A stretch of 64,000 nucleotides of DNA. Origin: Gammaproteobacteria bacterium (lineage in GTDB: Bacteria > Pseudomonadota > Gammaproteobacteria > Natronospirales > REEB76). The DNA is taken from contig DATEHU010000040.1 of assembly GCA_035279405.1 (NCBI GenBank), positions 1-64,000 on the forward strand, in the 5' to 3' direction. Below the pieces are notes generated by a model, which worked only from the letters and a program-made list of their open reading frames with translations, was not told where the DNA came from and made no database searches. The position numbers and the translations under genes were made by a program. Positions 51,685 through 55,578 of the stretch are shown piece after piece; the first letter of the stretch is position 1; every line of letters begins with the position of its first letter.

Positions 51685-52323
51685 TCACGGCTGGATGGGC
51701 GCGTAGTGCAGGCCCTGGATGTAACTGGCCACCGCCTGCATCTGCGCCGGCGTGAGCCGCGCGGCAATGGTATCCATCATCGGAGATTGGCGGCTGCCGT
51801 TGGCGAAGGCTTGCAGCTGGCTCACCACGTATTCGGCGTGCTGACCCGATAGTTGCGGGATTTTCATCGGCGGGTTGCCGGCGCCATCCGGACCGTGGCA
51901 GGCGAGGCAGGCCGGCACTCCGGATGCGGCATCGCCGCCGCGGTACACCGCTTCGCCGGTCTTCACCAGGCTGGGGTCGGCCTCACCGGGTTTGACCGTC
52001 TGGCTGGAAAACCAGGCAGCCAGGTCTTCCATGTCCTGCGTGCTCAACGGCGCAGCCATGGGCTGCATGATCGGGTTTCTGCGCTCGCCTGATTTGAAGC
52101 GCTGCAGTTCGCGCACGATGTAGTCTGCATTCTGGCCGGCAAGCTTGGGGAATTGCGAGCTCACGCTATTGCCGTCGGCGCCGTGGCAGGCGGCGCAAGT
52201 GGCGGACTTGGCCTGGCCGGCGGCCGCGTTTCCGGGGACCGCGCTTTGATCGCTGGCGGCGCCGGCGTTGGCGGCCACCGCCACCGCGGCTGCGGTGGCC
52301 AACATCAATACCCATTTGTTCAT
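51685..52323 (-). CDS. Dihaem cytochrome c4
   Basis: This 212-residue protein starts at ATG 52323 with AGGAG upstream. A signal peptide is followed by two class I cytochrome c domains. Haem sites are CAACHG (about residue 43) and CLACHG (about residue 140), with axial Met candidates in NPIMQPMAAPLS and SPMMDTIAARL. Cytochrome c4 carries electrons from the bc1 complex to terminal oxidases. It heads the c4-dsbA-dsbA run. Confidence 0.93.
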   Translation of the reverse strand: MNKWVLMLATAAAVAVAANAGAASDQSAVPGNAAAGQAKSATCAACHGADGNSVSSQFPKLAGQNADYIVRELQRFKSGERRNPIMQPMAAPLSTQDMEDLAAWFSSQTVKPGEADPSLVKTGEAVYRGGDAASGVPACLACHGPDGAGNPPMKIPQLSGQHAEYVVSQLQAFANGSRQSPMMDTIAARLTPAQMQAVASYIQGLHYAPIQP

Positions 52324-52484
52324 GCGCAAGGCTCCTGACGGCAAAGCGGCGGACGGCACATGGGCCAAGGCAGTCTTGCGGGCCGGGAGTCCGCGTGCAG
52401 TGCGCCGCAAGGAAGGCGCGATTCTACACCAAGCCCGGAAATCCACTCCACGCATGAGCGCCGCAAGCCGCGGCAAAACGCAGG
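52324..52484. other. Cytochrome c4 upstream region
   Basis: This holds the c4 ribosome site and presumably its promoter. I see no gene here. The engB gene often found between polA and cytochrome c4 in related bacteria is absent. Confidence 0.45.
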
Positions 52485-52612
52485 CAAAAGAAACCCCGGT
52501 GCCAAAGGGGTAAAACACCGGGGTTAAACGCTTCACCCGGCTTGGGGAGACCGGATGGCTTTTCCCGCTCAGGGAGGTGAGCAGGAGTGAGCGCTATTGC
52601 GGCGCTCGAAGG
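52485..52612 (-). ncRNA. Candidate small RNA adjacent to polA (Spot 42/ErsA/sX13 position)
   Basis: On the minus strand there are three short hairpins followed by a terminator. GAGCGC-CGCAATA-GCGCTC lies at 52607-52589; GCTCA-CCTCCC-TGAGC at 52582-52567; CCGG-TCTCCCCAAG-CCGG at 52554-52537. The terminator stem AACCCCGGTG/CACCGGGGTT (52525-52492) has loop TTTTACCCCTTTGG and T-rich tail TTTCTTTT. Three loops expose C-rich runs that could pair with Shine-Dalgarno sequences. A -35-like GGAACTT (52641-52635) resembles an AlgU/sigmaE box; TTGTCA at 52688-52683 is an alternative sigma70 -35. The exact 5' end is unknown. Confidence 0.6.
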
Positions 52613-52755
52613 ATTGGAGCCTTGGCCCGGGGAAAAGTTCCGCGGGTACGTGACATTTTAAATCAGCACTAACTTGCTGAATTGACAAAATAATTTTCTC
52701 TCATCCCGCCATAGGCGAAGCGAAATGTAGTAACAGAAGACACCCCCTCATCCAG

Positions 52756-52775
52756 CCTCTCCCCGAGGGGAGAGG
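52756..52775. repeat. CCTCTCCCC/GGGGAGAGG palindrome after polA
   Basis: A perfect 9-bp inverted repeat with loop GA lies 20 bases after the polA stop codon. It belongs to a common bacterial intergenic palindrome class and may slow or end polA transcription; no T-tract follows. Confidence 0.55.
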
Positions 52776-52794
52776 AGATAAGGAACGTTTCCAT

Positions 52795-55578
52795 TTAGTG
52801 GGCTTCATCCCAGTTCGCGCCTGAACCGATGTCCACCACCAAGGGCACCTTGAGCTCCGCCGCGCCGCTCATGAGACGCGGCACCTCGCGTTGCACGTCA
52901 TTGAGCGCGGGGTCTTCAACTTCGAATACCAGTTCATCGTGCACCTGCATGATCATCTTCGCCGGCACGCGCTGCTCTCCCAGCCAGCGGTGTACCGCAA
53001 TCATTGCGCGCTTGATGATGTCGGCGGCAGTGCCCTGCATGGGCGCGTTGATGGCGCTGCGTTCGGCGTACTGGCGCAGCTGCGGATTCTTGGCGCGGAT
53101 CTCGGGCAGGTACAGGCGCCGGCCGAATACAGTTTCCACATAGCCCTGCTCGCGCGCCACTGCGCGTGTTTTGTCCATGAACTGCTTAACACCGGGATAA
53201 CGCGCAAAGTACAGGTCCACGTAATCCTGGGCCGCACCGCGCTCGATGCCGAGCTGTTTGGCCAGGCCGAAGGCGGACATGCCATAGATGAGACCGAAAT
53301 TGATGGCCTTGGCGGCGCGGCGGCGCTCGTCGCTGACCTCCTCCAATTTCAACCCGAAGACTTCGGCCGCCGTGGTGCGATGGATGTCCATGCCCTGCTC
53401 GAAGGCCGCCATGAGACCGGCGTCGCCCGAGAGGTGCGCCATGATGCGCAGTTCGATCTGCGAGTAATCGGCGGATACGATGCAGTTTCCCGGCGGCGCG
53501 ATGAACGCCTGCCGGATGCGCCGGCCTTCGGCAGTGCGCACTGGGATGTTCTGCAGATTCGGATCCATGGAGGACAGGCGCCCGGTGGCCGCGACGGCTT
53601 GGTGATAGCTGGTGTGCACGCGTCCTGTCTGGGGATTCACCTGCGTCGGAAGCTTATCGGTGTACGTGGACTTGAGCTTGCTCAACGCGCGGTAATCGAC
53701 AATCACTTTCGGCAGCTCGTAGCCTGCCGCCAGTTCCTCCAGCACGTCCTCGGCCGTGGACGGCTGGCCGCCCGGCGTCTTGCGCATCACTGGCAACTGC
53801 ATTTTCTCGAACAGTACGCTCTGCAACTGCTTGGGCGAGTCCAGGTTGAAGGGCTGGCCGGCGAGTTCATGGGCGCGCAGTTCAAGTTTGCGCAGGCTGG
53901 CGGTGATCTCGCTGCTCTGTTGCCTGAGCATGGCGCTGTCCAGCAGCACGCCGTGGTTTTCCATGGCGAGCAGCACTGGCACCAGCGGCATCTCGATGTC
54001 TTCGAACACGCGCTTGAGCGCGGGCACGGCGCGCAACCGCGGCCATAGGGTCGCGTGCAGGCGCAGGGTCACGTCCGCGTCCTCGGCGGAGTAACGCGTG
54101 GCTTCCTCGATGCGCACCTGCTCGAAGCCGATTTGCTTCGCGCCCTTGCCGGCCACGTCTTCGTAGTGAATAGTCTTGTAGTTCAGGTACTTTTCCGCGA
54201 GCGCGTCCATGTTGTGCTGGCTTGCCACGCTGTCGAGCACGTACGATTCCAGCATCGAATCGTATTTGATTCCGGCCAGCGCGATGCCGTGATTGGCGAG
54301 CACGTGAGCGTCATATTTGATGTGGTGGCCGAGCTTGGCATGTGCAGCGCTTTCCAGCAGCGGTTTGAGGCGCTGCAGCGTGCGTTCGCGGTCCAGTTGC
54401 GGCGGCACGTCCGCATAGCGGTGCGCGAGCGGCAGGTAGGCGGCCTCGCCGCTTTTGACCGCAAACGACACGCCGACGATGCGCGCCTGCATGTAATCGA
54501 GGCCGGTGGTTTCGGTGTCGACAGCGAAAAGCTCCGCGGATTCGAGCTTGGCTATCCATTTGTCCAAAGCGGTCTCATCCAGAATCGTTTCATAGCTGGG
54601 CTCGGGCGAGGCGTGAGGAGTGAGGGGTGAGGATGCAGCGGCAACAGGGACAGGCGCCGCTTCCATCGGTTTGGTTTCGCCGCCGTCCAGTTCGCGTAAC
54701 CAGGTCTTGAATTCCAGCCGCGTGTACAGCTCGCGCAACGCAGCCGCGTCGGGTGCGCGCATCGCGAGGTCGGCCAGCGTCACCGGAAGTTCCACGTCGC
54801 AGCGAATCACCGCCAGTTGGCGGGAAAGCATCGCTTGTTCGTGCTGAGCGCGTAATTTTTCCGGCAACTGTTTGGCGCCGCGGATCGCCAGTTGCGGTAC
54901 CTCGTCCAGACGCGCGTAGAGGCTTTCGAGTGTGCCGAAATGTTCGAGCAGCGGGGCGGCGGTCTTGGGACCGATGCCGGAGACCCCGGGAATGTTGTCG
55001 GAACTGTCGCCCACCAGCGCCAGATAATCGATGATCTGCTCCGGCCACACGCCGAATTTCTGCTTCACGCCCTCGCGATCGAGTACGGTGCCGGTCATGG
55101 TGTTCACCAGCGTGACCTGCGGATTCACGAGCTGGCCCATATCCTTGTCGCCGGTGGAAATCAGCACCGGCAGGTGATCGTCCGCGGCCTGTTTGGCCAG
55201 CGTTCCGATCACATCATCAGCCTCGACCCCGGGGATTTGCAGCACCGGAAAACCCAGGGCTTTGACCAGTGCATGCAGCGGCTCGATCTGCTCCACCATG
55301 TCGTCCGGCATGGCGGGCCGGTTGGCCTTGTACTCCGCGAACAGCTCGTCGCGGAAGGTCTTGCCGCTCGCGTCGAATACCACCGCCAGGCGTTCGGGAG
55401 CGTAGTCCGCGAGCAGCTTCTTCAGCATGGCGGCAACGCCGCGCACCGCGCCGGTGGGTTCGCCTTTGGAATTGCTGAGCGGCGGCAGAGCGAAATAGGC
55501 GCGATACAGATACGACGAACCGTCCACGAGAATCAGGGGCTTCTTCGGGGTGTCGTTGGCGGCTGCGTTTTCAGGCAT
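52795..55578 (-). CDS. polA: DNA polymerase I
   Basis: This 927-residue enzyme has all three domains. The 5'-3' exonuclease is at residues 14-300 (LILVDGSSYLYRAYFAL, DKDMGQLV). The 3'-5' exonuclease with proofreading motifs VDTETTGLDY, IKYDAHVL and YSAEDAD is at about 330-520. The polymerase has motif A VSADYSQIELR, B RRAAKAINFGLIYGM and C QVHDELVFE. It fills gaps in repair and replication. A TGAGGNG heptamer repeat (54607-54634) codes for the Ser/Pro linker SSPLTPHASPE between the two exonuclease domains. Confidence 0.97.
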   Translation of the reverse strand: MPENAAANDTPKKPLILVDGSSYLYRAYFALPPLSNSKGEPTGAVRGVAAMLKKLLADYAPERLAVVFDASGKTFRDELFAEYKANRPAMPDDMVEQIEPLHALVKALGFPVLQIPGVEADDVIGTLAKQAADDHLPVLISTGDKDMGQLVNPQVTLVNTMTGTVLDREGVKQKFGVWPEQIIDYLALVGDSSDNIPGVSGIGPKTAAPLLEHFGTLESLYARLDEVPQLAIRGAKQLPEKLRAQHEQAMLSRQLAVIRCDVELPVTLADLAMRAPDAAALRELYTRLEFKTWLRELDGGETKPMEAAPVPVAAASSPLTPHASPEPSYETILDETALDKWIAKLESAELFAVDTETTGLDYMQARIVGVSFAVKSGEAAYLPLAHRYADVPPQLDRERTLQRLKPLLESAAHAKLGHHIKYDAHVLANHGIALAGIKYDSMLESYVLDSVASQHNMDALAEKYLNYKTIHYEDVAGKGAKQIGFEQVRIEEATRYSAEDADVTLRLHATLWPRLRAVPALKRVFEDIEMPLVPVLLAMENHGVLLDSAMLRQQSSEITASLRKLELRAHELAGQPFNLDSPKQLQSVLFEKMQLPVMRKTPGGQPSTAEDVLEELAAGYELPKVIVDYRALSKLKSTYTDKLPTQVNPQTGRVHTSYHQAVAATGRLSSMDPNLQNIPVRTAEGRRIRQAFIAPPGNCIVSADYSQIELRIMAHLSGDAGLMAAFEQGMDIHRTTAAEVFGLKLEEVSDERRRAAKAINFGLIYGMSAFGLAKQLGIERGAAQDYVDLYFARYPGVKQFMDKTRAVAREQGYVETVFGRRLYLPEIRAKNPQLRQYAERSAINAPMQGTAADIIKRAMIAVHRWLGEQRVPAKMIMQVHDELVFEVEDPALNDVQREVPRLMSGAAELKVPLVVDIGSGANWDEAH
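54607..54634 (+). repeat. TGAGGNG heptamer repeat inside the polA linker
   Basis: CGAGGCG, TGAGGAG, TGAGGGG and TGAGGAT are four heptamers read on the plus strand. They lie in the coding sequence of polA and are in frame as a flexible linker between structural domains. Confidence 0.75.

Follow-up and report, generated by a model that had tools for sequence, protein, structure and literature searches.

Small RNAs (sRNAs) encoded next to polA have been described in several bacteria. One of them is sX13 of Xanthomonas, an expressed sRNA that acts without Hfq and represses its targets via C-rich loops directed at G-rich motifs near translation starts; mutations in the loops and tests of the G-motifs in targets support an action on mRNAs (PMC3771888). 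The same study, which found homologues of the Xcv sRNAs mainly in Xanthomonadaceae, raised the question of whether other bacteria also encode sRNAs at this locus (PMC3771888). In Pseudomonas, ErsA (also Pseudomon-1, RF01719) is expressed, has sigma22 promoter motifs (PMC7565897) and targets mRNAs (PMC7565897, PMC5819304). Expression has also been reported for anti-hemB (RF02837), which is ncS04 in Burkholderia cenocepacia (PMC5688073), and Spot 42 of Escherichia coli is known to depend on Hfq (PMC3771888). anti-hemB, sX13 and ErsA are catalogued as separate RNAs; we could have missed a prior published unification, since subscription journals were mostly outside our literature search.

The stretch of DNA analyzed here (64,000 nt, hereafter the window) contains an RNA gene of ~125 nt on the minus strand (52484..52608), as indicated by its fold, its covariation and its matches to the two covariance models described below. 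Like sX13, it is located 3' of polA (52795..55578, minus strand), which NCBIfam identifies as encoding DNA polymerase I. Its downstream neighbor, on the same strand, is a gene for a cytochrome c4-like diheme cytochrome (51685..52323) that matches cytochrome c families and is syntenic in relatives. The RNA folds into four hairpins, the last three of which expose C-rich motifs in their loops. Hairpin 1 (52589..52607), supported by fold and alignment, has the sequence GAGCGC-CGCAAUA-GCGCUC with GCAA in its loop. Hairpin 2 (52563..52586), supported by fold, covariation and loop count, displays CCUCCC (52577..52572); its UCACCUCC segment is identical to the anti-Shine-Dalgarno stretch of 16S rRNA. 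Hairpin 3 (52534..52557), supported by fold and covariation, presents CUCCCC in the loop CUCCCCAA (52549..52542), and the terminator hairpin (52485..52525), evident from sequence, fold and covariation, exposes ACCCC in the loop UUACCCCUUU and is followed by the T-tract TTTCTTTT. The fold is unusually stable (-59.1 kcal/mol, z = -5.81), with none of 200 shuffles equally stable. An initial annotation of this DNA had placed hairpins and a T-tailed terminator on the minus strand here, with CCTCCC, TCTCCCC and ACCCC in loops; sequence and fold bear out both the elements and their coordinates, and the three motifs are present in hairpins 2-4. A consensus scan for promoters and terminators reported neither at this site, because the scanner covers sigma-70 promoters only and loops of at most 8 nt. 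There was no match to the RNA in a plasmid collection. Between polA and the promoter of the RNA, the window also contains a palindromic CTCTCCCC-type repeat (52745-52778), of which four similar sites occur in the genome.

We searched 56 related genomes at the DNA level and obtained 15 matches, including that in the genome itself. Within the genus, nine of 11 genomes have one; another match comes from the family, and five more come from the order. All 15 copies are downstream of polA and on the same strand. In their alignment (A1), produced with MAFFT and without using structure, the C-rich loop cores are invariant and the stems vary, with 96.4% of cells paired. Two-sided changes affect 16 of the 30 pairs, amounting to 46 such cells versus 16.2 in shuffles, and slid controls score far lower than the true pairing. 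An alignment of the region downstream of polA was one of the checks put forward in the initial annotation, and the compensatory changes and invariant loop cores in these 15 copies satisfy it. A class-wide alignment of 91 members (A3) displays covariation in 30/30 pairs, with a score of 0.618 versus 0.199 when shuffled, A3 having been fitted to the model, which favors the structure. The remainder of the region 52485-52688, outside the RNA gene and its promoter, is poorly conserved upstream sequence. Two other readings of the region were discarded: a coding role, because the stems co-vary and the lengths of indels are not multiples of three, and a DNA operator at hairpin 1, because its varying stem has G-U pairs, frequent in the order-level set, around a GCAA loop that is constant. 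In four loci (L010, L011, L014 and L015), a second terminator-like hairpin directly follows that of the RNA, with a C-rich loop in three of them.

The distribution of the RNA was defined using a covariance model built from A1 (R1) and a second-round model built from the 91 matches (R2), both covering the RNA only and excluding the promoter. The window RNA is matched by R1 at 137 bits (52484-52611) and by R2 at 114 bits. Across 369 gammaproteobacterial genomes, R1 finds the RNA in 165 at E<=0.01, mostly in one place, and R2 in 214. At E<=1e-5, these numbers are ~150 and ~197, respectively, counted from printed rows. The stricter counts are safer, because weak matches near E 1e-3 are commoner outside the class than the E-values predict; E-values of short-calibrated models are rough. 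Only one match was found outside the class at E<=1e-5 (L195 in genome G529), which we attribute to chance since it lacks a promoter, polA, engB and c4. A scan of named genomes with a DNA pattern including neither the promoter nor full stems matched 64 contigs. Nearly all of those from Gammaproteobacteria and Betaproteobacteria are also model matches; Ectothiorhodospira, Thioalkalivibrio and Steroidobacteraceae are among the carriers that have names. The pattern matches in Akkermansia, Arthrobacter, Nannocystis and other unrelated phyla, none of which has a model match, are ascribed to chance. In the gammaproteobacterial sample, about every second genome has this RNA gene next to polA or engB.

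The order polA-sRNA-engB-cytochrome c4 is kept across the class. In the 75 loci that we fetched besides the window, polA is upstream on the same strand in 54 and in the opposite orientation in two; 13 lack polA within the fetched stretch, with engB or c4 adjoining the RNA, and in six all of these genes are absent. engB, the usual neighbor in relatives, typically faces the RNA. This differs from the genome under study (G000), in which no EngB/YsxC scored over the NCBIfam cut-off and engB is missing from the polA-c4 gap. Five loci contain tandem arrays of two to four RNA copies (L036, L061, L065, L074 and L078, with four in L036 and L061), most copies having their own sigmaE-type promoter and mostly intact loops. 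A second locus with two copies occurs in L092 (4285-4654) and L093 (4667-5047), which in L092 is beside a gene for an RlmL-type methyltransferase, away from polA. L040 and L071 have the RNA unit, promoter included, in the orientation opposite to polA. At least two CCC-bearing hairpin loops are present in 89/90 family members and at least three in 72/90, versus 0/90 on the antisense strand and 1/270 shuffles with three.

Upstream of the RNA is a sigmaE/AlgU-type promoter, consisting of a -35 element GGAACTT (52635..52641, minus strand) and, 16 nt past it, a -10 element TCCAA (52614..52618), both kept in relatives and class-wide. This GGAACTT-N16-TCCAA site (52641..52614) stops 5-7 nt before the 5' end of the RNA, and the spacing predicts an as yet unmapped transcription start region at 52606..52608. 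It fits the RpoE/AlgU consensus GAACTT-N16-17-TC (PMC3247240). A single such site is not significant by itself, with four GAACTT-N16/17-TC occurrences in the window versus 1.7 expected; its significance comes from its conservation. Of the 15 order-level copies, 14 have it at a constant spacing and register, and GAAC[T/C]-N17/18-TC is located just upstream of the RNA in 73/91 class matches and 46/53 DNA-pattern matches (80-87%), versus 196/24477 control windows of the loci themselves (0.8%). The spacer after the 7-base -35 element is 16 nt in 103 cases and 17 nt in 16, the -10 element varies across the family (TCTTA, TCATA, TCTAA, TCTGA, TCAAA), and the model matches begin 1-6 nt past it in most copies. 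The genome also encodes Hfq and an RpoE (TIGR02939, 310.8 bits), which is followed by an RseA-like gene and preceded, 39 nt before its start, by a sigmaE-like site. What had originally been only a hint of AlgU/sigmaE control, the GGAACTT element, has thereby gained a matching -10 element that the initial annotation lacked, a conserved promoter and, in this genome, an RpoE with an RseA-like protein. Therefore, the window RNA is most likely under the control of an envelope-stress sigma factor, a dependence that we infer from a predicted promoter and that has been established experimentally for ErsA only.

How does the window RNA relate to the known families? At gathering scores, Rfam reports nothing at this site, and it names only 0/20 loci in one set and 4/32 in another, all anti-hemB. 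The best Rfam match, which the initial annotation had not named, is to anti-hemB on the same strand, at 38.6 bits (E 1.6e-7) versus a cut-off of 49.5 bits. The alignment overlaps the window RNA, with a common CUCCCUGAGCGGG hairpin and terminator; the Rfam model omits hairpin 1, unlike the window RNA. Reciprocally, R1/R2 match in place 12/12 of the Rfam-level anti-hemB genes in the fetched loci, several of which adjoin engB. Matches to sX13 (RF02232; 25.1 bits, E 0.01) and ErsA (18.6 bits, E 0.36) are again on the same strand and below the cut-off of 50 bits, and weak Rfam matches to these two families fall largely where R1 finds the RNA. This comparison with Rfam, suggested in the initial annotation, supports the view that the window RNA is an unannotated member of a group of polA-linked sRNAs with C-rich loops.

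Three sX13 genes above the RF02232 cut-off are matched by R1 at 49.0, 47.6 and 47.6 bits (E 2e-11 to 5e-11). sX13 shares with the window RNA three C-rich loops, and the R1 alignment is full length, reaching the 5' GCAA hairpin. In L094-L096, the Rfam sX13 model begins within this conserved hairpin, where the annotated 5' end is also found, so that this end may be a processed one or may result from another promoter. R2 matches six ErsA loci in place at a modest 28-33 bits (local E ~2e-6 to 4e-5), but did not find the RNA genome-wide in G179. All six have a sigmaE-type promoter in register, and five of them, as fetched, the polA-engB-c4 order; ErsA also resembles the window RNA in its C-rich loop and terminator and differs in its 5' half. 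Spot 42 is encoded on the polA strand between polA and yihA/engB, a similar position. However, it has no sigmaE site, Rfam Spot 42 (RF00021) gave no match in this region of the window up to E 10, and R2 matches the E. coli gene in the right place at a weak 18.8 bits that rest largely on the terminator. The polA-linked family originally proposed thus holds for sX13, gains anti-hemB and may extend distantly to ErsA; for Spot 42, nothing goes beyond position and those 18.8 bits. At the level of sequence and predicted structure, these matches demonstrate that the window RNA is homologous to anti-hemB and sX13, and its in-register match to ErsA suggests a more distant relationship. Since the models match genes of all three families in place, the families appear to be branches of a single one. 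We think it probable, with less assurance than for the function discussed next, that together with the window RNA they descend from one ancestral sigmaE-driven sRNA gene between polA and engB, present in the ancestor of Gammaproteobacteria (Betaproteobacteria included).

From the gene, its fold, conservation and synteny, the conserved promoter, the presence of RpoE-RseA and Hfq, and the homology to sX13 and anti-hemB, we consider it very likely that the window RNA is an envelope-stress-induced, trans-acting sRNA whose loops block G-rich ribosome-binding sites; its transcription and its action on mRNAs are inferred. Upon envelope stress, RpoE (sigmaE/AlgU) would drive this stand-alone gene from its own promoter, yielding a stable, highly folded RNA that ends at the intrinsic terminator. 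Three of its stems would display C-rich loops able to base-pair with mRNAs, either at G-rich ribosome-binding sites or at enhancer motifs close by, and so reduce translation; hairpin 2 copies part of the anti-Shine-Dalgarno sequence. Such repression, experimental for sX13 only, is deduced here from homology with sX13 and ErsA. Among 291 called genes, loop complements of at least 7 nt at ribosome-binding sites number nine versus five for reversed loops, too few for a clear target enrichment; they include starts resembling those of a TonB-dependent receptor and MscL. No convincing target emerged from duplex scans against the starts of polA, c4, dsbA, rpoE and rseA.

We weighed three other explanations. 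The hairpins could merely be the transcription terminator region of polA, with no separate RNA, which would account for their position directly 3' of polA, the terminator at their end and the engB gene that usually converges on them. We find this highly implausible, because the hairpins are separated from polA by a conserved promoter of their own, the C-rich loops are on one strand only, the unit can be tandemly duplicated, or inverted versus polA with its promoter kept, and the homologues sX13, ErsA and anti-hemB/ncS04 are expressed (PMC3771888, PMC7565897, PMC5688073). Alternatively, a genuine sRNA of this family could work chiefly through protein binding, such as the titration of a regulator, rather than by pairing with mRNAs. 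The very strong structure, the several similar loops, the tandem multiplication of the gene and the unclear target enrichment would all be compatible with this, yet it remains unlikely given that the mutated loops of sX13 and the tests on G-motifs of its targets favor an action on mRNAs (PMC3771888) and that the conserved C-rich loop cores complement G-rich ribosome-binding sites.

The last possibility is that the sRNA is conserved and GGAACTT-TCCAA is idle in its own genome, another sigma factor being responsible. Control by sigmaE is indeed not universal in the family, since four anti-hemB loci (L196-L199) have no sigmaE-type promoter upstream and the site is degenerate in sX13 loci. The missing promoter in L196-L199 suggests rewired control, and it seems likely that another sigma factor drives the RNA in some anti-hemB loci. 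For the window RNA, which unlike these has the site, we give this little credence: the site is not significant in one window, but its constancy in order-level relatives, and the RpoE of this very genome with a similar site before rpoE, argue against it. Regulation by RpoE thus remains our preferred reading.

These models answer the question of whether the polA locus encodes sRNAs beyond Xanthomonadaceae: it does, in about one of every two gammaproteobacterial genomes sampled. They indicate a common envelope-stress promoter, which is testable in laboratory strains. A single covariance model could supersede several narrow models and serve to annotate genomes by the thousand, and the results obtained with sX13 loops and with ErsA could transfer to many genera. 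If there was indeed one ancestral gene, few of the known sigmaE-dependent sRNAs would be more widespread, with most copies lacking annotation, and Spot 42 would possibly be its highly diverged enteric form.
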